A stretch of 38,598 nt of DNA from Chloroflexi bacterium OHK40. GTDB lineage: Bacteria; Chloroflexota; Chloroflexia; Chloroflexales; Chloroflexaceae. How positions within the stretch are numbered: position 1 is the stretch's first letter; every line of letters begins with the position of its first letter. The translations under genes were made by a program, and so were the position numbers. This document shows positions 1 to 22,286 of this stretch, piece after piece. The DNA lies in NCBI GenBank assembly GCA_004367505.1, contig SFCB01000244.1, forward strand, positions 1-38,598, in the 5' to 3' direction. Under the pieces are notes generated by a model. It worked only from the letters and a program-made list of their open reading frames with translations. It was not told the DNA's origin and did not search any database.

Positions 1-87
1 CGTCTCCTCCGGCTCCCGCGTCTCCTCCGGCTCCCGCGTCTCCTCCGGCTCCCGCGTCTCCTCCGGCTCCCGCGTCTCCTCATTCGG
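1..87. repeat. 18-bp tandem repeat, in frame (REPEET units)
   Basis: Four perfect 18-bp units start at positions 1, 19, 37 and 55, with a fifth partial unit from 73. On the minus strand each unit encodes six residues, Arg-Glu-Pro-Glu-Glu-Thr. The array continues beyond the left edge. It forms part of the stalk of the DUF5667-like protein and is a likely site of copy-number change. Confidence 0.9.
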
Positions 88-1047: not shown

Positions 1048-1113
1048 GGGTTACGCTAGAAGAGGAACGCTACACTCGTCCATCCGCACCGCACCTGGTG
1101 CGAGACAATCAAG

Positions 1114-1680: not shown

Positions 1681-1710
1681 AACGCCCCCTGATCTGCCTA
1701 TCCCAGGAAG

Positions 1711-1736
1711 AAACGCTGCCTGAACAGAAAAGTTAC
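1711..1736 (-). promoter_or_regulatory. Possible ECF-type promoter for the sigma gene
   Basis: Read on the minus strand, GTAACTT (complement of 1730-1736) is followed after 14 bases by CGTTT (complement of 1711-1715). This resembles the ECF pattern of an AAC-containing -35 and a CGT-type -10 but with a slightly short spacer. It lies about 30 nt upstream of the sigma start, where an autoregulated promoter would be expected. Weak evidence. Confidence 0.2.
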
Positions 1737-1747
1737 GTGCGCCGCAC

Positions 1748-2536
1748 TCACGCTCCGACAGCGCTGTAGCGGCGCAGGCCCCGCCGCCAGAGCAGCAGCA
1801 TGAGCCCGAAGAGGCTCAGCGCCCAGAACAGCTGGAGCACCAGGCCCTGGCCGATCGCCGCCGGGCTCAAGCGGCCGAGCAACAAGTCGAGTGGAAAGCT
1901 CAGCATCGACCGGAAGGGCAGCAGAACGAGCACACGTGTAACGGGCGGCGGCAGAAGGTCCAGCGGAACCAGGTAGCCACTGGCGAGCGCGTAAAGGCCA
2001 AACCAGAAGTCCTGCACCGCTAGCACCTGCGTCCACCAGAAGCTCAGCAGGCCAATACAACACTGGTTGCAGAAGTAGATGATGAAGGCCAGCACGATTG
2101 CCAGGGGCAGCACAACCAGGCTCAGCGGATCGGGCTGCGGCCAGGCACCGGGCTCGAAGAGCAACGCGACAAGCCAGATCGGTACGATCATCGCCAGCCG
2201 CAGCGGCTTGTCGCTCAGGGCCATGGCCAGGTAGCGCAGCAGCGGGTGGGCCGGCCGCAGCAGGTGCGGGGAGAGCTCGCCCATGCGAATCTCCCGCTCC
2301 ATATCCCATACGATCCACGCCCCCGCAAGCTGGCGGATGCTCAGCGCACCCACATAGTAGGTCACAAATTCTGCGCCGGTATAGCCACCTACGCCACCCG
2401 CGCCGGCCAGCGTGCGCCAGACGGCTAGCATCACCAGGGGCAGGGCACCGGTAAGCACCCAGATCAGCAACTCGGCGCGGTAGGCCAGCGCATCGGCCCA
2501 GGTGATTCGCAGCAGGGCGCCAAACTTGCGTACCAT
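1748..2536 (-). CDS. ABC-2 type transporter permease (COG4587-like)
   Basis: An all-helical inner membrane protein of about 262 residues with roughly six membrane segments, for example LLIWVLTGALPLVMLAVW near residues 23-40 and LSLVVLPLAIVLAFIIYF in the middle. The family pairs with a second permease and a COG4586-type ATPase in exporters of unknown substrate; the ATPase gene lies at 3965 on the other strand, with a glycosyltransferase between. I chose ATG (complement of 2534-2536, MVRKFGALLRITWADALAYR). A GTG five codons earlier is also possible, and the open frame runs further upstream to 2653 through repeat-like DNA that is unlikely to be coding. No good ribosome site precedes either start. 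The second permease usually present is not in the window. Confidence 0.82.
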   Translation of the reverse strand: MVRKFGALLRITWADALAYRAELLIWVLTGALPLVMLAVWRTLAGAGGVGGYTGAEFVTYYVGALSIRQLAGAWIVWDMEREIRMGELSPHLLRPAHPLLRYLAMALSDKPLRLAMIVPIWLVALLFEPGAWPQPDPLSLVVLPLAIVLAFIIYFCNQCCIGLLSFWWTQVLAVQDFWFGLYALASGYLVPLDLLPPPVTRVLVLLPFRSMLSFPLDLLLGRLSPAAIGQGLVLQLFWALSLFGLMLLLWRRGLRRYSAVGA

Positions 2537-2598
2537 CGGATGAGCTTTCACTATCGAGGCTCGCGGAGCTTGCGGTGTGGGCCGCTGAAGCGGCTGTC

Positions 2599-2618
2599 GT
2601 TCCCGCGCAAGCGAGAAC
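2599..2618. repeat. REP-like palindrome
   Basis: GTTCCCGC, GCAA, GCGAGAAC forms an 8-bp stem with one mismatch and a 4-nt loop. It resembles the dispersed TTCCCGCG...CGGGAA palindromes of many bacterial genomes. It sits in the divergent gap between the permease and the glycosyltransferase and overlaps the upstream open frames of both, which argues that neither frame is translated here. Confidence 0.5.
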
Positions 2619-2661
2619 CCGGCGCCCCCCGATCGGCGGTCCTTTCCGCCCAAAACGGGCG

Positions 2662-2667
2662 TATACT
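2662..2667 (+). promoter_or_regulatory. Possible -10 element for the glycosyltransferase
   Basis: TATACT lies 33 nt upstream of the chosen GTG start. No convincing -35 is present at the right distance, so this is a weak call. The start is supported better by GGAG at 2691-2694, six nucleotides before GTG 2701. Confidence 0.35.
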
Positions 2668-2700
2668 ACCACGGGAACGCCCAACGCACAGGAGCTCCAG

Positions 2701-3804
2701 GTGTCGCTCAGGATCGCCTTCCTCGATTCGTGGCTACAGCAGGTGGTCGATGGTAGCGGCACGGCGGCCGCCATCGGTGGGCTCGGCCGGGCCCTGCGCG
2801 CCCGTGGGCACCATGTTGCTCGGATCGGCCCTACCCGTGCCTGGCCGCCAGCCCTGACCCCGCGCCGCCTGCTCTTTAATCTCCAGCTCCCGGCCTTGCT
2901 CCGCTCGCTCGCCTATGATCTGATTGTCGGCTTTGATCTGGACGGCTTCCTCGTTGCTGGCCGCGCCCCTGCCCCTTATGTGTGCAGTGTCAAGGGGGTG
3001 ATCGCCGAAGAGCTGCGGCACGAGCGTGGGTCGGTGCGCCGCCTGCTCTGGCTCCTCTCGCGCCTCGAACGTGCCAACGCGCGCCGCGCGCCGCTTGTGC
3101 TCACCACCAGCGACTACTGCCGCCGCATGATCGGGCAGCACTACGGTGTGCCCACCGCGCGGGTTCGCCTGGTGCCCGAGGGCATTGACCTTGCGCGCTG
3201 GCGTCGGCTCCTGAGTGCCCCCGGTGGCCCGGAGCGCGAGGGCCAGCTGATCCTCTGTGTGGCACGCCAGTATCCGCGCAAGCACGTGGCCGACCTGCTC
3301 CACGCCGTCGCCGCCTTGCGCCCCCACTTCCCGGGTGCGCGCCTGGTGGTGATCGGCGACGGGCCAGAGCACCCCCGCTTGCGCTCCCTCGCCGATCGCC
3401 TGGCCCTCGGCCCTGCCGTCTCGCTCCTGGGCGCCATCCCCGACGATGATGCCGTGGTGCGCTGGTACCGGCGCGCCGGGATCTTCTGCCTGCCGAGTGT
3501 CCAGGAGGGTTTCGGGATCGTCTTCCTTGAGGCCATGGCCGCTGGCCTCCCGATCGTCGCTACTACCGCCGCCGCAGTGCCCGAGGTGGTGCCCCACGGC
3601 CAGGCCGGCACGCTCGTGCCGCCCGGCGACATCCCCGCCCTCACCGCCGCCCTCGCCGAGCTCCTCGCCCGCCCGCAGCTCCGCGCCGAGTACGGCGCCA
3701 CTGGCGCTGCACACGTCGCCCGCTACGATTGGGATCGCGTCGCCGAGCGCTTCCTGGAGGCGATCGCGCCCATGGTAGCGCGCCCCACGCCCTGTGGTGA
3801 ATAG
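2701..3804 (+). CDS. GT4-family glycosyltransferase
   Basis: A retaining GT-B glycosyltransferase of 367 residues that would move a sugar from an activated nucleotide donor to a lipid, glycan or small acceptor. The N-terminal Rossmann domain starts LRIAFLDSWLQQVVDGSG with the usual glycine-rich acceptor loop. The C-terminal donor domain begins near LILCVARQYPRKHV and holds the E-x7-E signature at about residues 269-277 (EGFGIVFLEAMAAGLP), preceded by VIGDGPE. I placed the start at GTG 2701 because GGAG lies 6 nt upstream and the protein begins with a typical family N-terminus; the longer open frame from 2575 runs through a palindrome. It is not clearly co-transcribed with the ABC ATPase 160 nt downstream. 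The substrate cannot be inferred. Confidence 0.9.
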   Translation: MSLRIAFLDSWLQQVVDGSGTAAAIGGLGRALRARGHHVARIGPTRAWPPALTPRRLLFNLQLPALLRSLAYDLIVGFDLDGFLVAGRAPAPYVCSVKGVIAEELRHERGSVRRLLWLLSRLERANARRAPLVLTTSDYCRRMIGQHYGVPTARVRLVPEGIDLARWRRLLSAPGGPEREGQLILCVARQYPRKHVADLLHAVAALRPHFPGARLVVIGDGPEHPRLRSLADRLALGPAVSLLGAIPDDDAVVRWYRRAGIFCLPSVQEGFGIVFLEAMAAGLPIVATTAAAVPEVVPHGQAGTLVPPGDIPALTAALAELLARPQLRAEYGATGAAHVARYDWDRVAERFLEAIAPMVARPTPCGE

Positions 3805-3817
3805 AGCCGACACGCGA

Positions 3818-3836
3818 CCACCGTGCATCACGGTGG
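3818..3836. terminator. Hairpin after the glycosyltransferase
   Basis: CCACCGTG, CAT, CACGGTGG is a perfect 8-bp stem with a 3-nt loop, starting 14 nt after the stop codon. No T-tract follows, so it may be a Rho-independent terminator of the T-poor kind or an mRNA end-stabiliser. Confidence 0.45.
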
Positions 3837-3964
3837 GGCGCCTTCGGCGCATCGGCACCTGATGCCGGATCGCTGCGGTGGATCGGTCCCTACCCGTCCG
3901 CAACGTGCTCCAGCCCTATCGTCTATCGTGTTTTCGCATCAGGCCCCTCACAGCTTGAACTCCT

Positions 3965-4954
3965 ATGTCGATCAGCGTCACCAACCTCAGCAAATACTAC
4001 GAGGTCCACCGGAAGGATGCCGGCCTCCGTGGCTCCCTGGCCGCCTTCGTCCGCCGCCGCTACGAGACGGTCCGGGCTGTGGATGCGATCTCCTTCCAGA
4101 TCGAGCCCGGCGAGATGGTAGGCTTTCTGGGCCCCAACGGTGCCGGCAAGACCACCACCCTCAAGGTGCTCGCCGGTTTGCTCCACCCCACCGCTGGTGA
4201 GGTGCGCGTCCTCGGCTACACCCCCTTCGAGCGCCGCCACAGCTTCCTCAAGGGGATCACGCTGGTGATGGGCCAGAAGCAGCAACTCTTCTGGGATCTG
4301 CCGGCCCTGGAGACCTTCGAGGTCAACCGGGTGATCTACGAGGTGCCCACCGACGAGTACCGGCGTACCCTGGCCGAGCTCACCGAGTTGCTCGATCTCG
4401 GCGATCTGCTCACCCGGCAGGTGCGCAAGCTGAGCCTGGGCGAACGCATGAAATGCGAACTCGCGGCCGCGCTGCTCCACCGCCCCCGGGTACTCTTCCT
4501 CGACGAGCCGACGATCGGCCTCGACGTGACCATGCAGGCCCGCGTGCGCGAGTTCGTCGCCGCCTATAACCGGCGCCACGAGGCGACCGTGCTCCTCACC
4601 AGCCACTACATGGCCGATGTCACCGCGTTGTGCAAGCGCGTGATCGTGATTAACCACGGCCAGCTGCTCTACGACGGCAACCTCCAGGCGCTGATCGAGC
4701 AGGTGGCGCCCCACAAGCTCATCCACGTGACGCTCAGTAGCCCGGTGGAACCCGGCGTCCTGGCCGCCTATGGTGAGGTGCAGCGCCTCGACGGGCTGGA
4801 GGCCGAGCTGCGCGTGGAGCGCAGCGAGACGACGAGAGTCGGCGCGCGGTTGCTCGCCGATCTTCCCGTCGCCGACATCAACATTGCCGAGCCGCCGATC
4901 GAAGCGATCATCGGCGAGGTGTTCGCCGGCAGCCCGTCGCCGGCGCGGCAGTAA
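3965..4954 (+). CDS. ABC transporter ATP-binding protein (COG4586-like)
   Basis: A cytoplasmic ATPase of 329 residues. Walker A GPNGAGKT is at residues 56-63, the Q-loop near Gln104, the signature LSLGERMK at 156-163, Walker B LFLDEPT at 177-183, and the H-loop in TSHYM near 215-219. The N-terminal extension before Walker A (KYYEVHRKDAGLRGSLAAFV) and the phrase GQKQQLFWDLP are typical of COG4586, the ATPase that works with two ABC-2 permeases in exporters of unknown cargo. The likely partner permease is divergent at 1748-2536. About 80 C-terminal residues after the nucleotide-binding fold form the regulatory tail seen in this group. The ATG at 3965 has no obvious ribosome site. Confidence 0.9.
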   Translation: MSISVTNLSKYYEVHRKDAGLRGSLAAFVRRRYETVRAVDAISFQIEPGEMVGFLGPNGAGKTTTLKVLAGLLHPTAGEVRVLGYTPFERRHSFLKGITLVMGQKQQLFWDLPALETFEVNRVIYEVPTDEYRRTLAELTELLDLGDLLTRQVRKLSLGERMKCELAAALLHRPRVLFLDEPTIGLDVTMQARVREFVAAYNRRHEATVLLTSHYMADVTALCKRVIVINHGQLLYDGNLQALIEQVAPHKLIHVTLSSPVEPGVLAAYGEVQRLDGLEAELRVERSETTRVGARLLADLPVADINIAEPPIEAIIGEVFAGSPSPARQ

Positions 4955-5469: not shown

Positions 5470-7557
5470 ATGACAACCGCCACCGGCACCTCGCTGATGG
5501 AATTTCTCGGCGAGATCCAGGATCGCAGGCAGTTCCAGCACCTTAACTGGCGCGGAACCTTCGCCGAGTACCTGGATCTCGTCGCGCGCGATTCGCGGGT
5601 CACCCGCAACGCCTTTCAGCGCATCTACGACATGATTATGTCGTACGGCACCGAGGAGTTCATCGATGCCAAGAAGCGTCTGATCCGCTACAAGTTTTTC
5701 TCCGACGAGTCCTTCGATGGGGATGACGCCATCTTCGGCCTCGAGATCCCCCTGATGCGCCTGGTGAACTTCTTCAAAGGCGCCGCCCGCGGCTATGGTA
5801 CCGAGAAGCGCGTGCTCCTGCTCCACGGCCCCGTGGGCTCCTCCAAGTCCACGATCGTGCGCCGCCTCAAGAAGGGCCTGGAGCATTACTCCCGCACCGA
5901 TGAGGGCGCTCTCTACACCTACGATTGGTACCTCGGGACGGTTGAGAACCTCTCGACGTTCGACTGGCGCCAGGTGCCTGAGAGCGAGTGGGAGAAGTGC
6001 CCCATGCACGAAGAGCCCCTGCACCTCGTGCCCATGGAGCTCCGCGAGCCCTTCCTCGCCCGCCTCAACGATGGCCGCCCCGACGACGACCAGATCCGTA
6101 TCGCCGGGGACCTCTGCCCCGTCTGTCGCTTCCACTTCCGCGAGCTCATGCGCCGCTATGAGGGCGATTGGACCCAGGTGGTCAAGCACATCCGCGTGCG
6201 CCGCCTGCTCTTCTCCGAGCAGGACCGGGTGGGCATCGGGACGTTCCAGCCCAAGGACGAGAAGAATCAGGACTCCACCGAGCTTACCGGCGATATTAAC
6301 TATCGCAAGATCGCCATCTACGGCTCCGACTCCGACCCGCGCGCGTTCAACTTCGATGGCGAGTTCAATATCGCCAACCGTGGGATCATCGAGTTCGTCG
6401 AGATGCTCAAGCTCGATGTGGCCTTCCTCTACGATCTGCTCGGCGCCTCCCAGGAACACCGCATCAAGTCCAAGAAGTTCGCCCAGACCGATATCGATGA
6501 GGTGATTATCGGGCATACCAACGAGCCCGAGTACCGGCGCCTCGAGAACAATGAGTTCATGGAGGCCCTGAAGGACCGCACCGTTCGCATCGATATCCCC
6601 TACGTCACCAGGCTGCGCGATGAGGAGCGCATCTACCACCGCGACTTCAACCGTCGCCGGGTGCGCGTGCATATCGCCCCCCACACCCTCGAGGTGGCCG
6701 CGATGTGGGCCGTGCTCACCCGCCTCGAAGACCCGAAGAAGCCCAATCTTACCTTGCTGCAGAAGCTGAAGCTCTACAATGGTAAGACTCTGCCGGGCTT
6801 CACTGAGGACAATATTAAGGAGCTCCGCAAGGAGGCGGTGCGCGAGGGGATGGAGGGCATCTCCGCCCGCTACATCCAGGATAAGATCTCCAATGCCCTC
6901 GTCACCAATCAGGAAGAGGGGTATATCAACCCCTTCATGGTGATCAATGAACTGGAGAGTGGCCTCAAGAACCACGCCCTGATCAACTCCGAGGACGACC
7001 GCAAGCGCTTCCGCGATCTGCTGGCCGTGGTTCGCGAGGAGTATACCGAGATCGTGAAGAACGAGGTGCAGCGCGCGATCTCCGCCGATGAGGAGGCGAT
7101 CAAGCGCCTCTGCGGCAACTATATCGATAACATCAAGGCCTACACCCAGCGCGAGAAGGTGCGTAACCGCTATACCGGCCAGTATGAGGAGCCCGATGAG
7201 CGGCTGATGCGCTCGATCGAGGAGAAGATCGATATCCCTGAGAGCCGCAAGGACGACTTCCGCCGCGAGATTATGAACTACATCGGTGCCCTGGCGATCG
7301 AAGGGAAGACCTTCGACTACCGCACGAATGAGCGGCTCCATAAGGCGCTTGAGCTCAAGCTCTTCGAGGACCAGAAGGATAGCATCAAGCTAACCTCGCT
7401 CGTCTCTCGCGTGATCGATAAGGATACGCAGGAGAAGATCGACGTCGTGAAGGCCCGCCTCATCCGCGACTTCGGCTACAATGAGCAGTCGGCCACCGAT
7501 GTGCTCAACTATGTGGCCTCGATCTTCGCCCGCGGCGATACCAGAGGCAACTACTAG
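5470..7557 (+). CDS. prkA: PrkA family AAA+ serine protein kinase
   Basis: A cytoplasmic protein of 695 residues, somewhat longer than E. coli YeaG. An AAA+ core with Walker [10 protein letters not shown] at residues 120-128 is followed by the C-terminal kinase-like PrkA domain. Characteristic PrkA text includes [20 protein letters not shown] before Walker A, a Cys pair in the zinc-ribbon-like insert ([16 protein letters not shown]), and [11 protein letters not shown] after it. PrkA proteins phosphorylate protein substrates and act in stress, stationary phase or sporulation; in proteobacteria the gene travels with the two genes that follow here. I start at ATG 5470 because AGGAGG sits 8 nt upstream; the frame upstream to 5242 is leader. 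The next gene is 83 nt away across a repeat hairpin. Confidence 0.95.
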
Positions 7558-7558
7558 C

Positions 7559-7636
7559 AGGGCACAGGGGGCAGGGAACAGGGAACAGCCGGCCACGCGC
7601 CCTGTCTCTGTCCCCTGTCCCCTGTCCCCGAACGAC
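7559..7636. repeat. G-rich/C-rich heptamer-like repeat forming an inverted arrangement
   Basis: The left half (about 7559-7590) repeats units like CAGGGAA and CAGGGGG. The right half (about 7600-7636) repeats CTGTCCC. The halves are complementary, so the transcript between prkA and the DUF444 gene can fold back on itself. The same motif family occurs at 16866-17125. Confidence 0.7.
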
Positions 7637-7640
7637 GCCT

Positions 7641-8750
7641 ATGTCAATGAAACGCGTCGACCGCGACCTCGGCCGCTTCCGGCAGATCGTTCGCGGCAAG
7701 ATCAAGAAAGACCTGCGCAAGTATATGTCGCACGGCGAGATGATCGGGCGCCAGGGGAAGCGCTTCGTCTCTATTCCCGTGCCGCAGATCGATATTCCCC
7801 AGTTCCGCTACGGCGCGCGCCAGGGTGGTGGCGTAGGCCAGGGCGACGGCGATGTGGGCGACCCGATCGCCCAGGGCGACGGCCAGCCCGGCCAGGGCCA
7901 GGCCGGCTCCGAGCCCGGCAAGCATACCCTTGAGGTCGATGTCTCCCTTGAGGAGCTCGCCGCCATCCTCGGCGAGGAGCTCCAGCTGCCCAATATCCAG
8001 CCCAAGGGCAAGAAGAACATCGTCAGCGAGAAGGATAAGTACTCCGGCATCCGCCGCACCGGCCCCAACTCGCTGCGCCATTTTAAGCGCACCTACCGCG
8101 AGGCCCTGCGCCGCCAGATCTCCGCCGGCGATTACGATAGCGCCGACCCGATCGTGGTGCCCATCCGCGACGATATGCGCTACCGCTCCTGGAAGGAGAC
8201 CATGCTCCCCGAGAGCAATGCCGTCATTATCTATATGATGGATGTCTCCGGATCGATGGGTACCGAGCAGAAGGAGCTCGTCCGGATTACCGCCTTCTGG
8301 ATCGAGACCTGGCTGCGCTCCCAGTATAAGGAGATCGACATTCGCTATATCGTCCACGATGCCGCCGCCAAAGAGGTTGACCAGGAGACGTTCTACCACA
8401 TCCGCGAGGGCGGTGGTACGAAGATCTCTTCGGCCTACAAGCTCTGCAATCGCCTGATCGATGAGCGCTACCCCGCCGCTGAGTGGAATATCTACCCATT
8501 CCACTTCTCCGACGGCGATAACTGGGGCGGCGGCGATACGCGCGAGTGCATCGAGCTCCTGAAGCGCGAGCTGCTGCCGAAGGTCAACCTCTTCTGCTAT
8601 GGCCAGGTGCGCTCGCTCTATGGCTCCGGTCGCTTCGCCCACGATCTCGAGGAGTACCTCGGGAACGATGATCGCATCGTGGTCTCTGAGATCGCCGAGC
8701 GCGATGATATCTACGATACGATTAAGGATTTCCTCGGCAAAGGAAAATGA
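7641..8750 (+). CDS. DUF444 / YeaH-YhbH family protein with VWA domain
   Basis: A cytoplasmic protein of 369 residues. The basic N-terminus ([17 protein letters not shown]) and the conserved [14 protein letters not shown] segment (about 45-58) are typical of the YeaH/YhbH family. A Gly/Gln-rich linker follows at 60-92. The von Willebrand A-like half starts near residue 195 and has the metal-site motif DVSGSMG at 201-207; HDAAAKEV and [10 protein letters not shown] supply the other likely MIDAS loops. The family is tied genetically to PrkA and SpoVR and acts with them in stress and stationary-phase adaptation, but its biochemistry is not settled. A second ATG two codons in is an equally good start; no clear ribosome site precedes either, so translation may depend on the upstream hairpin region. 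Confidence 0.93.
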
Positions 8751-13250: not shown

Positions 13251-13445
13251 GCCGGGAGCACATCCATCACAGCGAGCGCTCGTGAGCCGCTCCCCGGCGC
13301 ATGCGGCGCGGCAAGCACTCGTCGCATCGCCCCCCACGCTCATCGCGCGTCCGGCTTGATGAGCGGGCAGCCGGCCCTTTGCAACCCAACGTCGCGCACC
13401 CCGCCAGGAAGGGTCTGTGAGCATCACCCTGGCTTCCAGTTCCTG

Positions 13446-13463
13446 TGCTACAATCGCCAGGTG
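13446..13463 (+). promoter_or_regulatory. Extended -10 promoter placed for leaderless ccmA
   Basis: TGC followed by TACAAT (13449-13454) is an extended -10. The next six bases lead straight into GTG 13461, exactly where transcription should begin, so the ccmA mRNA is probably leaderless. No -35 is evident, which is common with extended -10 promoters. The same CTGTGCTACAAT 12-mer recurs before the J-thioredoxin gene at 20704-20715. Confidence 0.6.
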
Positions 13464-14081
13464 GAGACCAGGCTGACAGTTGAGGGTGTGGCGGCCACCT
13501 ACGGCGCACGTCGCGTCTTCGCCGACGTATCGCTTGAACTGAGCGGCGGCGAGGTGCTGGTGGTGAGCGGGGCTAATGGGAGCGGCAAGAGCACCTTCTT
13601 GCGGCTGCTCGCCGGGCTGCAGCGCCCCGAGGCGGGCCAGATCGTCTATCGCTGTGGTGGCCAGGCGCTCGACCCGCGCGACGCGGCGCGGCTGATCGGC
13701 TGGGTGGCCCCTGATTTGATGCTCTACCGCGAGCTGACGGGCCGTGAGAACCTGCGCTTCTTCGCCGAGGTGCGCCGGCTGCACCTGGACGATGGCGCGA
13801 TCGAGGCCTTGCTGGAGCGCGTGGGGCTCGCCGGACGTGGCGATGAACGGCTAGCCACCTACTCCTCCGGGATGGCGCAGCGGCTCCGCTACGCCTACGC
13901 CCTGCTCCACCATCCGCCCGTGCTTTTGCTCGATGAGCCGGGGCTCACCCTGGACGAACGCGGCACCGCCGTGGTGGAGCGCGTCATCGCTGAGCAGCGC
14001 CGCAGTGGGATCGTGGTTGTTGCCACGAACGACCCGCGCGAACTGCGCTATGGCGACCTGCTGCTGCGACTTGGGACCTGA
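13461..14081 (+). CDS. ccmA: Haem exporter ATP-binding protein CcmA
   Basis: The ATPase of the CcmAB(CD) complex, which works in System I cytochrome c maturation by releasing haem-loaded CcmE from CcmC. At 206 residues it has the small size typical of CcmA. Walker A GANGSGKST is at 37-45, the signature YSSGMAQRL at 134-142, and Walker B LLDEP at about 155-159. The D-loop follows as GLTLD. The start is GTG 13461, chosen because the -10 element fits it exactly and the protein then begins with the standard first beta-strand (VETRLTVEGVAATYG); the frame is open further upstream from 13356. ccmB follows after about 100 nt. Confidence 0.9.
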   Translation: METRLTVEGVAATYGARRVFADVSLELSGGEVLVVSGANGSGKSTFLRLLAGLQRPEAGQIVYRCGGQALDPRDAARLIGWVAPDLMLYRELTGRENLRFFAEVRRLHLDDGAIEALLERVGLAGRGDERLATYSSGMAQRLRYAYALLHHPPVLLLDEPGLTLDERGTAVVERVIAEQRRSGIVVVATNDPRELRYGDLLLRLGT

Positions 14082-14185
14082 TCGCACGAGCTTCCACCCA
14101 CCAGCACCAAGCGTGCGCGCGAGCCCGTGCGCCGCTGCCCCACTGGCTGGTGGCTGGCCCTGACCCACGCGAGACTGCGCCAGAA

Positions 14186-14944
14186 ATGCACAAGGAGCTT
14201 GACCAGAACGTGGCTGGCGTGGAGCGGGAGGAGCTCGAAGCCTCCGGTAGCCTCGGCGTGCGCGCCGTGCTCGGGGCGTCATGGGCCGTCTTCGTGAAGG
14301 ACCTGCGCACTGAGCTGCGCACGCGCTACGCGATCAATGTGCTGGTGCTCTTCGCCGCCTGTGCGGCGGTGGCGGTGAGTCTCGGGGTGGGCTTCATCGG
14401 CCTGCGCCGCACCGACGAGGCCTTGCTGATCCAGGCCACCTTGCTCTGGATCGCGCTGCTCTTCGCGGCGCTCAATGGCCTGTCCCGGGGATTCGTGCAG
14501 GAGGAGGAGACGCGCACCATGGCCGCGCTACGCCTGGCCGCGCCACCGCTAGCCGTCTACCTCGGCAAGTTCCTGCTTAACGTGCTGCTTCTAGCCGTAC
14601 TCGAGGCGATCACCAGCCTGCTCTTCATCGTGCTGGTGCGGGTCCAGGTGGGCAGCCCCCTCGCCTTGATCGGCACGCTCGCCGCTGGCGGGCTGAGCCT
14701 TGCTACCGCCACCACCATCCTCGCCGCCATTATCGCCAGGGCCAGTTTTAAGAGTGCGCTCTTCGCCGTGCTGGCCTTCCCCCTGATCGTGCCACCGCTG
14801 ATTGTCGCGATCCAGAGCACCGCCGCCGCCCTCGGCAGCGGCGGGTTGCCGCAGGCCGTCCCCGCGCTCCAGTTTCTCGGCGCCTATAGCGTGGCCACCT
14901 TCGTTGCCTCTTTGCTGCTCTTCCGCTTCGTGTGGGAGGCGTAG
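14186..14944 (+). CDS. ccmB: Haem exporter permease CcmB
   Basis: An integral membrane protein with six predicted helices, of 252 residues from this start. After a charged N-terminus come the conserved KDLRTELRTRY segment and NGLSRGFVQEEETRTMAALR, the CcmB signature (usually LxxLFxxDYEDGSLE in proteobacteria). The glycine/proline-rich FPLIVPPLIVAIQST near the fifth helix is also typical. With CcmA it forms the ABC module. The start is uncertain: ATG 14186 is used here, GTG 14150 would add 12 residues, and a later GTG is possible; none has a clear ribosome site. It ends 260 nt before ccmC, in a gap with two promoter-like elements. Confidence 0.88.
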   Translation: MHKELDQNVAGVEREELEASGSLGVRAVLGASWAVFVKDLRTELRTRYAINVLVLFAACAAVAVSLGVGFIGLRRTDEALLIQATLLWIALLFAALNGLSRGFVQEEETRTMAALRLAAPPLAVYLGKFLLNVLLLAVLEAITSLLFIVLVRVQVGSPLALIGTLAAGGLSLATATTILAAIIARASFKSALFAVLAFPLIVPPLIVAIQSTAAALGSGGLPQAVPALQFLGAYSVATFVASLLLFRFVWEA

Positions 14945-15204: not shown

Positions 15205-16170
15205 ATGGTGCAGCGCCTGGCCCGGCTGGGCAAGCTGCTAATCGGGCTCTGGCTCGCCGGTGTGGCCATCGCAATGTTCCTGGTGGTTCCCCAGTATGAG
15301 GGACTGGGCAACGCTGGCCGGATTGTAATCATGCACGTGCCCACCGCGTGGGTCGCCGTGGTCGCATTCACCGTGTCGGCAATCTTTAGCGCCCGCTATC
15401 TCTGGCGCCGGCGCCCCCAGGACGACGACTACGCCCTTGCAGCGGCAGAGAGCGGCTTCCTCTTCACCACCCTCGCGACCGTCACAGGCATGATCTTCTC
15501 CCAGGTCGTCTGGGGTGTCTACTGGAACTGGGACCCGAGGCAGACCTCGATCTTTGTGCTGCTCCTGATCTACGCGGCGCTCTTCGCCCTGCGTGCGGCC
15601 ATCGATGAGCCGCAGCGCCGCCGCCAGTTGAGCGCGGTCTACTCGCTCTTCGCCTTTGTGACGATGCCCTTCCTGGTGTTTGTAGCGCCACGCATCGCCG
15701 ACAGTACGCTGCACCCCAACTGCGCCTTCATCCAGGGCAGCCAGTGCGACGGGCTGACGCTTGAGGTGGGCAAGATCGGGCTGCTGGGCGATCGCAAGGT
15801 GCAACTGCTGGCCCTGGAGCGCAACGGCGATGTAGTGACGGCGCAGGTGAAGGTGAGCGAGCCGGGGCTGACAGCCGAGCGCGTCCTGAGCCCGAGCTTC
15901 GACCTGGTGCACGAGGAGATGGTGGCCCGCCCGGAGTTCCCGGGCCTCCGCTACCAGCTCGGCCTGGAAGCGGTGGATCTGGAGGCGAACAGCGCGCTGC
16001 TGAATATCGAGGCTCCCGGCACCGGGCTGCTGGAGAACCGCCGCACGCTCTTCACGTTCCTGGCGGCGATCATCGGCTTCACCGCGCTCTTCTTCTGGAT
16101 GCTCTCGGTGCGCGCCACCCTGCTGGGTGTGCAGTGGGCCCTGGCCCAACGGGCAGGAGGACGGCTATGA
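15205..16170 (+). CDS. ccmC: Haem lyase/handling protein CcmC, long form
   Basis: CcmC loads haem onto CcmE outside the membrane. The six-helix core is complete: the first His ligand is His44 (IMHVPTAW), the WWD-type haem loop is WGVYWNWDPRQTS (about 103-115), and the second His ligand is His170 (STLHP). Normally the last helix follows within about 25 residues; here about 100 extra residues (171-278) separate it, beta-rich in appearance and with Cys173 and Cys181 close to the ligand. Total length is 321 residues against about 245 for E. coli CcmC. The ATG at 15205 fits; a GTG directly after it is an alternative. The stop overlaps the ccmD start (ATGA). Confidence 0.92.
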   Translation: MVQRLARLGKLLIGLWLAGVAIAMFLVVPQYEGLGNAGRIVIMHVPTAWVAVVAFTVSAIFSARYLWRRRPQDDDYALAAAESGFLFTTLATVTGMIFSQVVWGVYWNWDPRQTSIFVLLLIYAALFALRAAIDEPQRRRQLSAVYSLFAFVTMPFLVFVAPRIADSTLHPNCAFIQGSQCDGLTLEVGKIGLLGDRKVQLLALERNGDVVTAQVKVSEPGLTAERVLSPSFDLVHEEMVARPEFPGLRYQLGLEAVDLEANSALLNIEAPGTGLLENRRTLFTFLAAIIGFTALFFWMLSVRATLLGVQWALAQRAGGRL

Positions 16171-16394
16171 GCGTCGCACTTGAGGCCGGCGTCGCTATCT
16201 ATGTAGCGATGGCCGTGGCCCTCGCGGTCTGGATCGGGATCTTTGTCTACCTCTGGCGTCTGGACGCACAGGCCAGCGCCCTCAAGCGCGAACTGGAGCG
16301 CGAGCAATCGGAAGATCCGGTCGAGCGCGCCCCCGCCCCCCGCGCTACCGTCACCCGGGTGCGCCCGGCGAGCAGCGAGCCGGGCGAGGGGTAG
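16167..16394 (+). CDS. ccmD: CcmD-like small membrane protein
   Basis: A 75-residue protein with one N-terminal membrane helix (about residues 8-28, GVAIYVAMAVALAVWIGIF) and a charged cytoplasmic tail (LKRELEREQSED). CcmD stabilises the CcmABC-CcmE complex. The match rests on size, topology and position between ccmC and ccmE, as CcmD has little sequence conservation. The ATG overlaps the ccmC stop by ATGA and has a strong AGGAGG just upstream, so translation is coupled. The Pro/Ala/Arg-rich C-terminus is longer than in most CcmD proteins. Confidence 0.75.
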   Translation: MSVALEAGVAIYVAMAVALAVWIGIFVYLWRLDAQASALKRELEREQSEDPVERAPAPRATVTRVRPASSEPGEG

Positions 16395-16454: not shown

Positions 16455-16868
16455 ATGGCCAGTATCACTCCTCCGGCACGGCGCGGGCTAACGATCAAGC
16501 CGCTGCACATCGCCGGGCTTGGCATCATCCTGATCGCCGTCATCTATGGCACCTTTGGCCTCCAGAGCGGGTTTCGCTCCTACACCACCAGCGTCGACGA
16601 GGCCGTGGCAGCAACCCGCAGCGTGCAACTCGCAGGTTTCCTTGGCAGCACCGGCGAGTACGACGACCGTGGTCGCTTCACCTTCCTGCTCCAGGACGAG
16701 GACGGCAAGCTGATCAAGGTGATCTCCAACGAGACCCGGCCGCCCAACTTCGAACAGGCGATCAGTATTGTCGCGATCGGTCGCTACGACGCCACGGAAC
16801 AGGCTTTCATGGCCGACGATCTGCTCGTCAAGTGTCCCTCGAAGTACCAGGAGCAGCTCAACGGATAG
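16455..16868 (+). CDS. ccmE: Cytochrome c-type biogenesis haem chaperone CcmE, CxxxY type
   Basis: CcmE carries haem covalently from CcmC to the CcmF/H lyase. The 137-residue protein has an N-terminal signal anchor (about 18-34) and the OB-fold beta barrel, with conserved text such as VQLAGFLG, FLLQDEDGKLIKV and RPPNF. The haem-attachment motif at the end is Cys127-Pro-Ser-Lys-Tyr131, that is CxxxY in place of the HxxxY of E. coli. Cys-type CcmE proteins are known from archaea and some other bacteria. It starts 60 nt after ccmD. After the stop comes a G-rich/C-rich repeat block. Confidence 0.93.
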   Translation: MASITPPARRGLTIKPLHIAGLGIILIAVIYGTFGLQSGFRSYTTSVDEAVAATRSVQLAGFLGSTGEYDDRGRFTFLLQDEDGKLIKVISNETRPPNFEQAISIVAIGRYDATEQAFMADDLLVKCPSKYQEQLNG

Positions 16869-17125
16869 GGGACAGGGACAGGGGACAGGGGAGAGAGGAT
16901 AGCGACAAGAGACAGGGAACAGGGGATAGCGACAGGAATGATGGTGTTCGCTTTGCTCGCGCGAGCGCTGTAAGTACCAGAGCGACCCCACCGATGCACT
17001 GTTCGAACCGCCCTCCACCCTGCACGCTCCATCCTGCACCCTCGATCACGCATTCCCCACCCTTAGCGCTGCACCCTCCACCCTGCACTCTGCCCCTGTG
17101 CCCTGTCCCCTGTACCCTGGAAGGC
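16866..17125. repeat. G-rich then C-rich heptamer-like repeat block between ccmE and ccmF
   Basis: From 16866 to about 16940 there are units such as GGGGACA and AGGGAACA. From about 16985 to 17125 there are CCACCCTGCA, CCATCCTGCA and CCTGTCCC units. The G-rich and C-rich parts are complementary in places, for example GGGGACAGGG with CCCTGTCCCC, so a long-range hairpin is possible. The block fills the whole 262-nt ccmE-ccmF gap and holds no gene. Confidence 0.65.
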
Positions 17126-17130
17126 CTCCT

Positions 17131-19533
17131 ATGTACCTGCTCGGCACCTTCCTGCTCGTTACCGCTGTTGCCATGGCCCTGCTGGCCGTAGGCAGCTACG
17201 TGATGGTCGTGCGCGGCAGCCGGCCGGCCCTGGCCTACGGTCGCTTCGGCGTCTTTGCGGCTCTCGGAGCCATTCTCATGGCCTGGACGCTGCTGATCAC
17301 ACTATTCCTGGCGCGGCGCTTCGACATCGAGTACGTCAACAACTATAGCTCACGCGATCTGGATTTCTTCTTCAGTATTGCGGCGAGCTGGGCCGGGCAG
17401 CCGGGTAGCTTTTTGATCTGGGTGCTGTGGGGCGCGATCGCAACGGCCCTGCTGGTACGCCGAACGCGGCACTTCGAACCGTACGTCCTCGGCGTGATGA
17501 TGCTCGTGCAGGCGGCCCTGCTGATCTTTGTGCTGGTGCTCAACCCCTTCAAGCCGCTGCTCGATGCAACCACTGGCCTGCCGCTGACCCCGGATGACGG
17601 CAGGGGCCTGAACCCGCTGCTGCACAACTTCTGGATGATCATCCACCCGCCCATCCTCTTCGTTGGCTACGCGCTCAGTACGGTGCCCTTCGCCTTCGCC
17701 GTGAGCGCGCTGCTGCGCCGCGACTACGACACCTGGATCACCCGGGCCCTCCCATGGACCCTCGGCGCCTGGTCCTTCCTTGGCCTGGCCTTGCTCCTCG
17801 GCGGCTACTGGGCCTACGAGACGCTCGGCTGGGGCGGCTACTGGGGCTGGGACCCGGTGGAGAACTCATCGCTGGTGCCCTGGATCTTGCTCACCGCCCT
17901 GATCCACGGCATGGTGCTGCAGCGCTCCCAGGGGGCCCTGCGCAAGAGCAACCTCCTGCTGGCCCTGCTCGTCTACGTGCTCGTCTTCTATGCCACCTTC
18001 CTCACGCGCAGCGGCGTCTACGCCAACTTCTCGGTACACTCGTTTGTGGCCGAGGGGATCTTCGAAGGACTGGTGGCCTTCCTGGTGCTGCTCCTGGCCG
18101 GCTCAATCGGGCTCTTCTTCTGGCGCTGGCGCGATATCCCCTCCAGGCCGCTGAGCGACCGCTTCTTCTCCCGCGATAGCTTCTTCGTGCTGGCGATCCT
18201 CTCGATGGTCGTCACCGCCCTGGTGGTAGGGATCGGCACCTCGATGCCGGTGATCTCCGCCATTCCGGGTGTTGGCCATACCCTGCAGGGCTGGCTCGGG
18301 GCCGCCTTCGAGCTCGACGACGGCACACTGATGAACCCCCAGGCCCAGCCGTTCGAGGACGGGCGCTTCAGCCTGGCGCCGAGCTTCTACCAGCAGACCG
18401 CCCCCCCGCTTGGCGCGGTGATCATCGTGCTGATGACACTCGGGCCGCTCCTGGGCTGGCGCGATACGAATATGCGCCACCTCCTGAAGGCCCTGCGCTG
18501 GCCCGCCGTGGCCGCCGTGGCCGCCGCGATTGTGGCGATGCTGATCGACGTGCGCGATCTGCTCTCGCTGGCCTATGTCGCGGGTGGCACCTTCGCCATC
18601 GGTACCAATCTGGTGATGATCGTCAGGACCCTGCGCGGCGGCTGGATGCGCATCGGTGGCTACCTGGCCCACGTCGGCTTCGCGATCATGGTGCTCGGGA
18701 TGGTCGGCTCCAGCGCCTATGCCACTCCCGAGACCCGCCTCACCCTCGCCCCCGGCGAGAGCGCGCGGCTCTTCGGCTACGAGTTCATCTTCAATGGCTA
18801 CCGACTCGACGAGCAGCAGCGCGGGGTGCTCGACTTCTCGGTGAGCGACGGGCGGCAGACCTTCAGCGCCAGGCCCTACCTCTACGAGAACCAGCGCATG
18901 GGCGCCACGATGACCACTCCGTCGATTCACAGCTTCGGCTACCAGGATCTCTACATCGCGCCGGCCGGCTACGATCCGGAGCGCGACGCCGCCCGCCCCG
19001 TGCTCGGCCAGGACGAGAGCACGACGATGGGCCCCTACACGCTCACCTTCCTGGGCTTCAACATCGACCGCGAGGCGATGATGGCGGGCAGTGGCGACCT
19101 GCGGGTGGGCGCGCGCGTGCGGGTGTTGTACGAGGGCCAGGAGCAGGAGCTCGAGCCCTATGTGCAAGTTGTGACCGACTCGGCCAGCGGCGAGCAGCGG
19201 CTCGAGTATGTGCCGGTCGATCTGCCGGGCGAGGGCCAGCAACTCACAGTGATCTCGCTCGACCCGAGCTCGCGCCGCGTGATGCTCCAGGGGAGCGGAC
19301 CCGGCCTCGATGGCCTGCCGGTCATCCCGGCCAAGGGCGTCATCGCGGTGAGCGTCAAGCCGCTGGTGATCCTGGTCTGGGTGGGCGTCGCGATGATTGT
19401 GACCGGCGGCATGATCGCCTTGCTGCGCCGCTCGATCGAGGGACGCGCCGCCCTCGCCGGAGTACGGCCCCGGCTGCCCAGGGGCCTGCCGCTGCCCGGC
19501 CTCGGCCTTGGATCACGCGGCACGGGACGCTGA
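17131..19533 (+). CDS. ccmF: Cytochrome c haem lyase subunit CcmF
   Basis: The large membrane subunit that joins haem from CcmE to the CxxCH of apocytochrome c. The 800-residue protein has about 14-15 membrane helices and a large extracytoplasmic C-terminal domain (about 540-760) before the last helix (VIPAKGVIAVSVKPLVILVW region). Motifs: FSIAASWAGQPGSFLIW near the N-terminus, the WWD haem loop GGYWGWDPVENSSLVPW (about 234-250), and His residues in LLHNFWMIIHPP, IHGMVLQ and FSVHSFV. I start at ATG 17131, where AAGG lies 8 nt upstream; the frame is open a little further. The next gene starts 10 nt after the stop, so the two are co-transcribed. Confidence 0.94.
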   Translation: MYLLGTFLLVTAVAMALLAVGSYVMVVRGSRPALAYGRFGVFAALGAILMAWTLLITLFLARRFDIEYVNNYSSRDLDFFFSIAASWAGQPGSFLIWVLWGAIATALLVRRTRHFEPYVLGVMMLVQAALLIFVLVLNPFKPLLDATTGLPLTPDDGRGLNPLLHNFWMIIHPPILFVGYALSTVPFAFAVSALLRRDYDTWITRALPWTLGAWSFLGLALLLGGYWAYETLGWGGYWGWDPVENSSLVPWILLTALIHGMVLQRSQGALRKSNLLLALLVYVLVFYATFLTRSGVYANFSVHSFVAEGIFEGLVAFLVLLLAGSIGLFFWRWRDIPSRPLSDRFFSRDSFFVLAILSMVVTALVVGIGTSMPVISAIPGVGHTLQGWLGAAFELDDGTLMNPQAQPFEDGRFSLAPSFYQQTAPPLGAVIIVLMTLGPLLGWRDTNMRHLLKALRWPAVAAVAAAIVAMLIDVRDLLSLAYVAGGTFAIGTNLVMIVRTLRGGWMRIGGYLAHVGFAIMVLGMVGSSAYATPETRLTLAPGESARLFGYEFIFNGYRLDEQQRGVLDFSVSDGRQTFSARPYLYENQRMGATMTTPSIHSFGYQDLYIAPAGYDPERDAARPVLGQDESTTMGPYTLTFLGFNIDREAMMAGSGDLRVGARVRVLYEGQEQELEPYVQVVTDSASGEQRLEYVPVDLPGEGQQLTVISLDPSSRRVMLQGSGPGLDGLPVIPAKGVIAVSVKPLVILVWVGVAMIVTGGMIALLRRSIEGRAALAGVRPRLPRGLPLPGLGLGSRGTGR

Positions 19534-19543
19534 CTGAGCGACG

Positions 19544-20647
19544 ATGCAAGACTACTACGAGACGTTGCAAGTTCACCCCCGCGCCGACGCGGAGGCGATC
19601 AAGGCCGCCTATGCTCGGCTCCGGGAGCGCTACGACCCGGTCAAGCTGGAGGGTGCCGCCGAGGAGCTCCAGGAGCTGGCCCGCCGCCGGCGAGATGAGA
19701 TTGAGCGCGCCTACACCGTGCTCAGCGACCCGGAGCGGCGCCGCCGCTACGATGCCGAACTCGCCACCAGCGTGGCAGAACCCGCTCCAGAGCCTGCTGC
19801 TCCGGATGATGACGAGGCGCTGATCGATTACCGCCCGCTGCCACCCGCCAGGCGCCAGGAGCGCCCCGCCGGCTTCAACGCTCAGCCCACCCTCTCGCCA
19901 GCCCAGGCCACCCGGCGCAGCGCCGGTCGCCGCGCCACCCACGGAGGCGCGCCGCTGTGGGTCGCCCCGGCGCTGATCGTCGCCGCCGCCACCTTCGCCA
20001 TCGTCCTGGTAACACTGATCACTACCGTGCTCGGCAGCCCGCCACCGGCCACCTCCCAGCAGGACGGCCCGCAGATCCTCGACCCGAACGCGCCCACGGC
20101 AACTGCACCCACACCCACCACCGCGCAGGTGATCAACCAGTTCGAAGGCCAGATCGTGGCGGCACGCCAGGTGGCCAACCAGGTACCCGATAACTACAAC
20201 GCCTGGATCGAGCTCGGCAACGCCCTCTATGATAGCCTGGTGGTGGTGCGCGAGCGGCTCGCCAGCGGCGACCCGGCCCTCCAGAGCACCTACGTTGAGC
20301 GCCTGCCGCGCTGGCTTGAGGCGGCCGAGGCCTACCGCAAGGCCGCCGAACTCCAGCCCGCCGATCCGGTAGCCCGCGCCGACCTGGCGGCGAGCCTCTG
20401 TTTCTACGGCGAGGACATCAACGACGTGAGTTTTGTGCAGCAGGGCCTCGCCGAAGCTGAACAGGCCCTGGCCCTGGGGCCCCAGGAGCCACGAGCCTTG
20501 CTGAGCAAGGGGCTCTGCCTGGCCTTCGCTGACCCGCCCCAGACTCAGGCAGCGCTCGAGACATGGCAGCGGCTGATTGTGCTCCCCGACGCCGATCCCG
20601 GCCTCGTCTTCCAGGCCCGCCAGCTGATCGCCGAGTACGGCAGCTAA
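19544..20647 (+). CDS. J-like domain, membrane helix and TPR protein
   Basis: A 367-residue membrane protein. Residues 1-70 match the J-domain fold, with YYETLQVHPRADAEAIKAAY at the start and AYTVLSDPERRRRYD at the end, but the loop that should carry His-Pro-Asp reads RYDPVKL, so stimulation of DnaK is not expected. After a Pro-rich linker, one membrane helix (about 138-163) follows a cluster of Arg residues, which predicts the J-like part inside and the rest outside. The outside part (about 190-367) has TPR-type repeats (YNAWIELGNALYDS, WLEAAEAYRKAAELQPADP, AEQALALGPQEPRALLSKGL). A TPR protein at this spot of a ccm cluster suggests a CcmI/NrfG-like apocytochrome c chaperone. Confidence 0.85.
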   Translation: MQDYYETLQVHPRADAEAIKAAYARLRERYDPVKLEGAAEELQELARRRRDEIERAYTVLSDPERRRRYDAELATSVAEPAPEPAAPDDDEALIDYRPLPPARRQERPAGFNAQPTLSPAQATRRSAGRRATHGGAPLWVAPALIVAAATFAIVLVTLITTVLGSPPPATSQQDGPQILDPNAPTATAPTPTTAQVINQFEGQIVAARQVANQVPDNYNAWIELGNALYDSLVVVRERLASGDPALQSTYVERLPRWLEAAEAYRKAAELQPADPVARADLAASLCFYGEDINDVSFVQQGLAEAEQALALGPQEPRALLSKGLCLAFADPPQTQAALETWQRLIVLPDADPGLVFQARQLIAEYGS

Positions 20648-20686
20648 CGTGCTGTCATCACCCTTTAACTTTTAACCATTCCGGGG

Positions 20687-20715
20687 TTCAAAAAGTTAAA
20701 AAGCTGTGCTACAAT
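20687..20715 (+). promoter_or_regulatory. Promoter of the J-like thioredoxin gene
   Basis: TTCAAA (20687-20692), a 17-bp spacer and an extended -10 TGC-TACAAT (20710-20715). The expected start near 20722 gives a leader of about 15 nt. The -10 region is identical over 12 bases to the one at ccmA. Confidence 0.65.
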
Positions 20716-20736
20716 GGGCTGAGGCCTGAATACACC

Positions 20737-21573
20737 ATGGGAACGTACTACACAACCCTGGGGGTGAGCCCCGGCGCGAGCCAGGAGGAGATCGCCGCCG
20801 CCTACGAGCGCCAGCGTCAGCGCTACGACCCGGAGCGCGTAGCCGGGCTTGACCCGGAGCTGCAACGGCTTGCAGCCGAGCGCAGCGCCGAACTGCAGCG
20901 GGCCTACGCCGTGCTCGGCCAGCCTGAGCGGCGCCGGGCCTACGATGCAAGCCTGAGTGGCACACCCGGGCCTGTGGCGGCCCGCCAGCGCGGCCTGACC
21001 CCTCGTGAGCGGCGCTACACCCTGGCCGGCGTGGTCATCGCCCTGGCCCTCGTTGGAGCGATCTGGGTGCTCACCGGCCGCGACGGGGTGCCCCGGGGCC
21101 AGGCCATGAGCGAGGTGAACCGCCCCGCACCAGCCTTCGAGGCGCCTGCCCTTGACGGTGGCACGATTAGCCTGGCCAGCTATAGCGGCGACGTCGTGCT
21201 GCTGAACTTCTGGGCCACCTGGTGCGAGCCCTGTAAGCGCGAAATGCCCGCGCTTCAGGAAGCCCACCAGCGCCTCGGCGACCAGGGGCTTGCGATTATC
21301 GGCGTGAACCTGACCGACGACGAGCAGGCCCAGGGCGGCGATACCGCGAAGATTCGCGCCTTCCTCGACCAGTTCGGAGTAACTTACCCCAACGTTCTCG
21401 ATATCGAGGGCGAGGTGACCAACGCCTACCGTGTTTTCCCCCTGCCCACGAGCTTCTTCATCGACCCGCAGGGCCGCATCCGCTATGTGCATATCGGCGA
21501 GTTGACGCTTGAGGATGTGACAGCCCGGTTCAGCGAACTGAGCCGTGAGGCGACCGCCACGAGCGCCAGGTAG
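20737..21573 (+). CDS. J-like domain, membrane helix and thioredoxin fusion (CcmG/TlpA-like)
   Basis: A 278-residue membrane protein with the same plan as its upstream neighbour. Residues 1-72 form a J-like domain (YYTTLGVSPGASQEEIAAAY and AYAVLGQPERRRAYD), again with the HPD site changed to RYDPER. One helix at 94-113 predicts the J-like part inside. The outside part (about 125-270) is a TlpA/CcmG-type thioredoxin with active site WCEPCK (Cys163, Cys166) and cis-proline Pro237 (PLPTSF). CcmG keeps the CxxCH of apocytochrome c reduced for haem attachment. The start ATG 20737 follows its promoter closely; the open frame upstream to 20563 overlaps the previous gene and is not supported. Confidence 0.9.
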   Translation: MGTYYTTLGVSPGASQEEIAAAYERQRQRYDPERVAGLDPELQRLAAERSAELQRAYAVLGQPERRRAYDASLSGTPGPVAARQRGLTPRERRYTLAGVVIALALVGAIWVLTGRDGVPRGQAMSEVNRPAPAFEAPALDGGTISLASYSGDVVLLNFWATWCEPCKREMPALQEAHQRLGDQGLAIIGVNLTDDEQAQGGDTAKIRAFLDQFGVTYPNVLDIEGEVTNAYRVFPLPTSFFIDPQGRIRYVHIGELTLEDVTARFSELSREATATSAR

Positions 21574-21587
21574 CCCAGAGGAAACCG

Positions 21588-22286
21588 ATGGAGCCGCGTA
21601 CCATCCTGGTGGTTGATGACGATCACGGCCTCCGCGAGCTGATCCGCATCAACCTCGAGCACGAAGGCTACAGCGTCATCCAGGCTGCCAACGGGGTGCA
21701 GTGTGTCCAGGCGGTGCGCGAGCAGCGCCCCGACATGGTGATCCTCGATGTGATGATGCCCGAGATGGATGGCCTGGAGGCTTGTGGCAAGGTGCGCGAG
21801 TTCTCCCAGGTGCCCATCCTGATGCTCACCGCCAAGGTGCAGAGCGAGGATGTGATTACCGGCCTCGACCGGGGCGCCGATGATTATCTGATCAAGCCGT
21901 TTAATATGGACGAGCTCTCGGCACGCATCCGCGCCCTGCTGCGCCGCGTGCCGCCGGCCTATCGCCCCCTCACTGCCGGCGATGGCCAGATCACCATCGA
22001 CCAGCAGAAGCGCGAGGTGCGTGTGCGCGGCGAGCCGGTGGACCTCACCCCCACCGAGTATCATCTGTTGCTCATCCTCACCGAGAATGCCGGGAAGGTC
22101 GTTGAGCACGAAACGTTGCTGCGGGCTGTCTGGGGCCAGGAGTACACCAAGGACAACGACTACCTCAAGGTGTACATCTGGCACCTGCGCCGGAAGATTG
22201 AGGTCGATCCGCGCAATCCCAAGCTGCTGCTGACCGAGTGGGGCGTTGGCTACCGCATGGTTCCCACACCCCCGGCTACAAATTGA
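21588..22286 (+). CDS. OmpR/PhoB-family response regulator
   Basis: A 232-residue DNA-binding regulator. The receiver domain (1-120) has the acidic pocket VVDDDH (Asp10-Asp12), the phosphoacceptor Asp54 in VILDVMMPEMDG, the Thr in MLTAK and the Lys in LIKPF. The winged-helix domain (about 130-228) has the usual DLTPTEYHLLLIL and RRKIEVDP. No histidine kinase gene is next to it, so its partner is elsewhere. It starts 15 nt after the thioredoxin gene, with GAGGAAA upstream, and is probably co-transcribed with it. Its stop codon overlaps the -35 of the tRNA promoter. Whether it controls the ccm genes is not shown. Confidence 0.93.
   Translation: MEPRTILVVDDDHGLRELIRINLEHEGYSVIQAANGVQCVQAVREQRPDMVILDVMMPEMDGLEACGKVREFSQVPILMLTAKVQSEDVITGLDRGADDYLIKPFNMDELSARIRALLRRVPPAYRPLTAGDGQITIDQQKREVRVRGEPVDLTPTEYHLLLILTENAGKVVEHETLLRAVWGQEYTKDNDYLKVYIWHLRRKIEVDPRNPKLLLTEWGVGYRMVPTPPATN

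Follow-up and report, generated by a model that had tools for sequence, protein, structure and literature searches.

HPD-less J domains on the putative TPR and thioredoxin arms of a System I*-type cytochrome c maturation operon in Chloroflexales

The window, i.e., the whole 38,598-nucleotide stretch of DNA analyzed here, belongs to Chloroflexi bacterium OHK40, a member of the order Chloroflexales with a 6.9 Mb genome, and contains a cytochrome c maturation operon arranged on the forward strand as ccmA, ccmB, ccmC, a ccmD-like gene, ccmE, ccmF, gene A, gene B and a gene for an OmpR-type response regulator. The ABC ATPase encoded by ccmA (13356-14081) matched Pfam ABC_tran and, with 127.9 bits, slightly less than the cut-off of 131.6, the NCBIfam ccmA model TIGR01189. 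The product of ccmB (14150-14944) matched Pfam CcmB (71.4 bits), and that of ccmC (15205-16170) matched Pfam Cytochrom_C_asm, with the ccmC model as its top NCBIfam match, below cut-off. A small ccmD-like membrane protein (16134-16394) was recognized by Pfam CcmD_alt (24.3 bits; cut-off, 23.5), followed by a cysteine-type ccmE (16455-16868; Pfam CcmE, 41.2 bits), whose sequence contains the haem-binding motif CPSKY at approximately 16833-16847, and by a divergent ccmF (17098-19533; Pfam Cytochrom_C_asm and CcmF_C). The OmpR-family response regulator gene (21588-22286) lies downstream of gene B in nearly all relatives.

The CPSKY motif was present in the CcmE of the window and in every CcmE encoded in the operons of relatives. 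CcmH (PF03918) gave no matches in the OHK40 genome, in a search that was validated by matches in four control genomes, and DsbD/CcdA-type reductant carriers are present. By sequence, a CPSKY-type CcmE and a genome in which CcmH was not found are features of System I*, where the absence of CcmH is frequent and not obligatory; the ccmABCDEF operon is a further likeness to that system. Chloroflexi have been named among the carriers of a cysteine-type CcmE, and no CcmG was found in sulfate reducers with System I* (PMC3601427). This is in contrast with the present locus, in which a CcmG/ResA-like and a TPR arm, each with a predicted inside HPD-less J domain, accompany the operon. The architecture is real, conserved and unusual, and we regard it as a System I* variant.

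Gene A (19544-20647, forward strand, 367 aa) starts 10 bases after the end of ccmF and encodes a putative CcmI-like arm composed of a J domain, a membrane helix and a TPR domain. The J domain (aa 1-74, 19544-19765), in which DPV takes the place of HPD, matched Pfam DnaJ (PF00226; curated cut-off, 27.8 bits) with 48.4 bits over aa 3-70 (E = 1e-12) and, by sequence comparison, solved J domains with an E value of 3e-8. The AlphaFold2 model placed helices at aa 4-8, 16-29, 40-61 and 63-78 and the single membrane helix at aa 140-164 (19961-20035). The outer domain (aa 193-366, 20120-20641) has a clear and confidently modeled TPR fold; a fold search with A returned TPR matches only and thus did not address the J portion. 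The match to TPR_CcmH_CycH was weak (19.7 bits vs. a cut-off of 42), and this model was matched at E ≤ 0.001 by 21 of the 44 A homologues. On the basis of operon place and TPR fold, A is a candidate CcmI equivalent. Like CcmI/NrfG, it is a membrane-anchored protein with an outer TPR domain, encoded beside ccmF in a ccm operon, and CcmI has an inner segment too, in Rhodobacter a loop with a leucine zipper that connects its two membrane helices (PMC3884852). It differs in having one membrane helix, an N-terminal J domain and the motif DYRPLPPA, and in its TPR_CcmH_CycH score below cut-off.

This cytosolic motif, DYRPLPPARRQER (aa 95-107, 19826-19864; DYRPLPPA..ER in what follows), is situated between the J domain and the membrane helix of A, occurs once in the OHK40 genome and is the most conserved inside element of the protein. 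D95, P98 and L99 were invariant in 44 sequences, J-less ones included, and the motif was retained in Herpetosiphon-type genomes lacking both J domains (Herpetosiphon, Roseiflexus and Chloroflexus are the names that we presume for coded genera). Its dN/dS was 0.00-0.10 in the five best-sampled genera, the exception being a value of 0.44 from two genomes.

Gene B (20737-21573, forward strand, 278 aa) starts 89 bases after the end of A and encodes a J domain, a membrane helix and a thioredoxin domain, as a putative CcmG/ResA-like arm. A start at 20563 was rejected, as the longer reading frame is merely a mechanical extension and J-bearing homologues begin at the ATG at 20737. The J domain of B (aa 1-74, 20737-20958; DPE in place of HPD) matched Pfam DnaJ with 48.0 bits over aa 3-70 (E = 1e-12) and solved J domains with an E value of 2e-9, and its modeled helices span aa 4-8, 16-29, 40-60 and 63-73. 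At its single membrane helix (aa 89-114) lies a juxtamembrane GL(S/T)xRE motif (20995-21018), which was retained where the J domain was lost and in which R90 and E91 are nearly invariant. The confidently modeled thioredoxin domain carries the active site CEPC (21223-21234) within the motif WCEPCK, and C163, P165 and C166 do not vary among 45 sequences; the domain matched Pfam AhpC-TSA with 110.6 bits, and its nearest solved fold was ResA (1st9; 34% identity, TM-score 0.94), with Pseudomonas aeruginosa CcmG ranking lower. Both NCBIfam scores were below their cut-offs (ResA, 128.3 vs. 170 bits; DsbE, 73 vs. 123), and B can be classed as ResA/CcmG-like and assigned to neither equivalog. It shares with CcmG, DsbE and ResA the membrane-anchored outer thioredoxin domain with CEPC, as well as ResA as nearest fold, and is set apart from them by its cytosolic N-terminal J domain and the scores mentioned above. 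Directly upstream of B, a promoter-like site (TTCAAA-17-TACAAT, 20687-20715, forward strand) was identified by consensus match alone (one found vs. 0.1 expected), and B may also be transcribed separately from the operon.

Coordinates, Pfam matches and AlphaFold2 models agree with the initial sequence-only reading that two adjacent genes after ccmF share the plan of a J-type N-terminus, one membrane helix and an outside domain. In System I, CcmI/NrfG (TPR) holds the apocytochrome and CcmG (thioredoxin) reduces it, and neither normally has a J domain. The TPR nature of the outside domain of A and the WCEPCK thioredoxin of B were borne out by fold and family matches, and family and operon support the proposal that they represent the corresponding arms of a System I machine.

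With regard to the J domains, DnaJ matches at E ≤ 0.001 were obtained for 41 of the 44 A homologues and 34 of the 45 B homologues. The AlphaFold2 models, which rest on these 44 and 45 natural homologues, respectively, predicted helices at the J positions of both proteins with a pLDDT of 93-98 across the J blocks; the four-helix J fold of the N-termini is thus given by the models and the sequence matches to solved J domains, and a prediction devoid of J fold was not encountered. Judged by sequence, with Pfam E values too low for chance matches, both N-termini are bona fide J domains that are J-like solely in the loss of HPD. Hence, the earlier term "J-like" was right about the fold and too cautious in its wording, since both domains score above the curated Pfam cut-off. 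The single membrane helix of each protein shows a positive-inside bias, from which a cytosolic J domain and an outer TPR or thioredoxin domain are predicted.

At the HPD site, both proteins read RYDP, as noticed at the outset (YDPV in A, YDPE in B). None of the 92 homologous domains inspected (48 from A, 41 from B and 3 paralogous) has HPD; frequent forms are DPA, APE and NPE, and the A protein of one relative (L181) retains H, with PD absent. No homologue with HPD away from ccm genes was seen among these 92 domains, and the operon was kept across 61 genomes. In ordinary J domains, the positive charge of helix II binds DnaK. The mean charge of this helix (aa 19-29) was +4.1 in the HPD-bearing J domains of the phylum vs. 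+1.6 in A and +1.1 in B. Residues conserved in a type-specific manner have appeared instead (Q9, H11, P12, E41 and R50 in A; Q26 and R27 in B), a pattern that new binding surfaces would be expected to leave. In the rest of the phylum, the best J matches, some of which share the long loop, all have HPD, and ccmF was found beside none of them. That the J domains recruit DnaK even without HPD would fit the retention of fold and overall sequence; this is nevertheless very improbable, in view of the complete lack of HPD, the largely lost helix II charge and the HPD-bearing J proteins that coexist in the OHK40 genome (contigs C6, C32, C86 and C262).

Within genera, dN/dS was 0.03-0.19 for the J domain of A and 0.08-0.16 for that of B, near the values of the TPR and thioredoxin domains, and that of the linkers was 0.3-0.66 in most genera, well above the J domains in most of them. 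Purifying selection thus acts on both J domains, although most of the positive charge of helix II is gone. Taken together, these findings make a role independent of DnaK likely, a claim of the first reading with which the HPD count and the neutralized helix II agree. The same values bear on the idea that the J domains are relics, which came along with an N-terminal membrane anchor when A and B arose and are now drifting. Although the J domain of B was repeatedly lost or decayed, with its whole loop region deleted in one family (f2), a dN/dS of 0.03-0.19 over long times, close to that of the functional outer domains, and the single loss of the J domain of A make drift improbable.

The J domains of A and B share 53% identity (63.7 bits) and are closer to each other than to other J domains of the genome. 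In a J-domain tree, the HPD-bearing domains formed one group, and those of A and B formed largely separate groups, indicating that they were not homogenized within each genome; this tree is based on 81 columns only and its deeper forks are uncertain. Among 49 scored genomes, both J domains were present in 34, that of A only in nine, neither in six and that of B only in none. When mapped on the CcmF tree, the J domain of A was lost once, in the Herpetosiphon-type lineage and along with that of B, and the J domain of B was lost at least five times while that of A stayed intact. In the Roseiflexus-type genus, where B lacks the J domain, that of A is still constrained (dN/dS 0.16), and no stand-alone J gene was found in the A-B gaps of Roseiflexus-type genomes. 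The nested pattern is compatible with a dependence of the J domain of B on that of A, and not with the reverse. Given the five or more losses from B and the absence of both domains in the Herpetosiphon-type lineage, the J domains are dispensable and not an essential part of the reaction. In family f2 (L190, L192, L193 and L194), where the J domain of A is full, that of B has decayed via deletion of the loop between helices II and III, and the B proteins represent graded intermediates on the way to J loss.

These data weigh on the earlier proposal that the two J domains tether the arms to each other, namely that a heterodimer on the inner face keeps the TPR and thioredoxin arms adjacent. Tim14 and Tim16 pair in this way via their J and J-like domains. 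As in the Tim16/Pam16-Tim14/Pam18 pair, where HPD is missing in Tim16, two J-type, membrane-associated proteins are involved here; however, Tim14 keeps HPD and drives Hsp70, whereas both A and B are without HPD. The neighboring genes, the common plan, the identity between the J domains and their joint presence in 34 of the 49 genomes, with none having it in B alone, would suit such a tether. A tether predicts joint loss, though, and the losses were separate, which disfavors it in its strict form; moreover, the J domain of A stayed full and constrained where that of B was gone, and the two evolve as separate orthologous groups. We consider arm-to-arm tethering rather unlikely, and CcmF or another Ccm part is now preferred as the inner-face docking site.

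Homologues of A and B were present in all 61 relatives examined, with the arrangement ccmABCDEF-A-B-response regulator kept in nearly every case, and the two genes were on the same strand in 50 of 50 pairs. Among the matches listed from 301 genomes of the phylum, a full-length A (J plus TPR) and a full-length J-thioredoxin were confined to Chloroflexales. At 20 ccmF loci in other Chloroflexota, the J-domain model, which was positive inside the order and so served as its own control, found no J domain, and thioredoxins without J were often encoded there. The J domains, found at the A/B loci of the order and at none of the 20 outside loci, therefore look like acquisitions made at or before the base of Chloroflexales. 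A search for J/thioredoxin fusions beside ccmF across the phylum thus detected them in the order and at none of these outside loci, which supports the view that a J domain is abnormal on ccm arms.

The response regulator followed B at 58 of the 63 loci with B. It is MtrA/RpaB-like, and it was found after gene B even where the J domains were lost. That the J domains touch this co-located regulator and so report the state of cytochrome assembly would account for the linkage; nonetheless, the regulator's presence in Herpetosiphon-type genomes without any J domain and the general role of MtrA/RpaB-like regulators make this reading extremely improbable.

The CcmF_C match had E values of 1e-13 to 1e-23 in Chloroflexales, compared with 1e-45 to 1e-67 as the typical range for Chloroflexota outside the order, and the C-terminal half of the CcmF of the order is divergent. 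Comparison among relatives delimited a basic cytosolic C-terminal tail in the CcmF of the window (aa 777-811, 19426-19530, forward strand). This tail, LAGxRxRLP[KR]GLP, occurred in most Chloroflexaceae- and Roseiflexus-type genomes and was missing in the Herpetosiphon-type and f2 lineages. A link between the tail motif and an intact J domain in B, suggested by a 23/7/5/14 table, was discarded, as there were only two to three independent pairs and no signal was left after accounting for relatedness. The pattern also overlooked two obvious tails (L162 and L172), and tail co-distribution was not counted as evidence.

Building on the domains, predicted folds, missing HPD motif, operon linkage, sequence conservation, selection and loss pattern observed or computed here, we infer that the HPD-less J domains and the adjacent cytosolic segments anchor the two arms to the core at its inner face, with CcmF as the most likely partner, a proposal to which we give slightly better than an even chance. 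From family and operon, A would be the apocytochrome-holding arm (CcmI/NrfG-like TPR) and B the apocytochrome-reducing arm (CcmG/ResA-like thioredoxin) of a System I* machine, each with a cytosolic N-terminus and a working domain on the outer side of the membrane. The former J-protein domains, no longer acting with DnaK, would serve as protein-protein docking modules and, together with DYRPLPPA..ER in A and GLSxRE in B, would fix both arms to the core, probably to CcmF, which is divergent here and has a basic tail in the cytosol, so that capture, reduction and haem ligation would be brought to one place. On the outside, A would hold the apocytochrome and B would reduce its CXXCH. Because DYRPLPPA..ER and GL(S/T)xRE were kept where J domains were lost, these segments may be the universal inside contacts and the J domain a strengthening module.

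Client binding that does not involve Hsp70 occurs in some J proteins. The J domains might thus act as inner-face holdases that capture preapocytochromes prior to export, or contact the Sec exit, and pass the substrate to the outer arms, both of which would handle the same substrate outside. The predicted plain four-helix J folds are devoid of a client-binding domain and the operon shows no sign of a link to Sec, and we regard a holdase role as unlikely.

For docking on CcmF, NdhU provides a close parallel to the J domain and motif of A, as it docks on the chloroplast NDH complex via contacts made by its J-like domain and by the loop that leads to its membrane helix (PMC12170339). NdhU and NdhT (CRRL and CRRJ) resemble the present case as a J-type pair and in the combination of J-like domain, loop and membrane helix in a protein with a structural role in a membrane-bound redox complex. 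They differ in the complex concerned, in the lack of an outer catalytic domain past the helix and in that NdhT, a J-protein, has a possible HPD-dependent role (PMC9407819). The bitopic plastid and cyanobacterial division proteins ARC6, PARC6 and ZipN likewise have an inside J-like N-terminus and a membrane helix, and ZipN tethers its inside partner FtsZ to the membrane (PMC6391411, PMC9407819), although partners and process are other ones and the inner region is long. Tentatively, and with less than even confidence, the two HPD-less J domains, in partner subunits whose outside functions are separate, can be viewed as a dedicated inner-face docking platform that places the apocytochrome holder and the reductant on CcmF. 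In that case, and with the same guarded confidence, the J fold would have become a structural component of a cytochrome c synthase, similar to NdhU/NdhT and of independent origin in Chloroflexales.

In cytochrome c biogenesis, it has long been asked how CcmF is arranged with partners of the CcmG and CcmI types, since the contacts outside the membrane are transient. The natural fusions described here point to contacts at the inner face and offer a specific, testable motif, and the natural loss of one or both J domains (Roseiflexus- and Herpetosiphon-type, respectively) constitutes a ready comparison series. The HPD-less J domains suggest that the J fold has been reused as a docking part of a cytochrome-assembly machine, adding a bacterial example to the few J folds outside the Hsp70 cycle. 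A literature search of limited reach, combining J domain, thioredoxin and cytochrome c maturation or Chloroflexus aurantiacus and ccmF, returned nothing, which is weak evidence of novelty, and no experiments on A- or B-type proteins were found in the literature searched.

The same genome also encodes J-thioredoxin proteins of a second type, in which the J domain is shortened and likewise HPD-less (YDPA), in near copies on two contigs (C23, positions 1-4380, locus L003; C196, positions 6813-8734, locus L004). The copy at L003 sits between two further CcmF-type genes, and in one relative (L207, genome G046) a J-thioredoxin of this second type adjoins an extra ccmF of its own.
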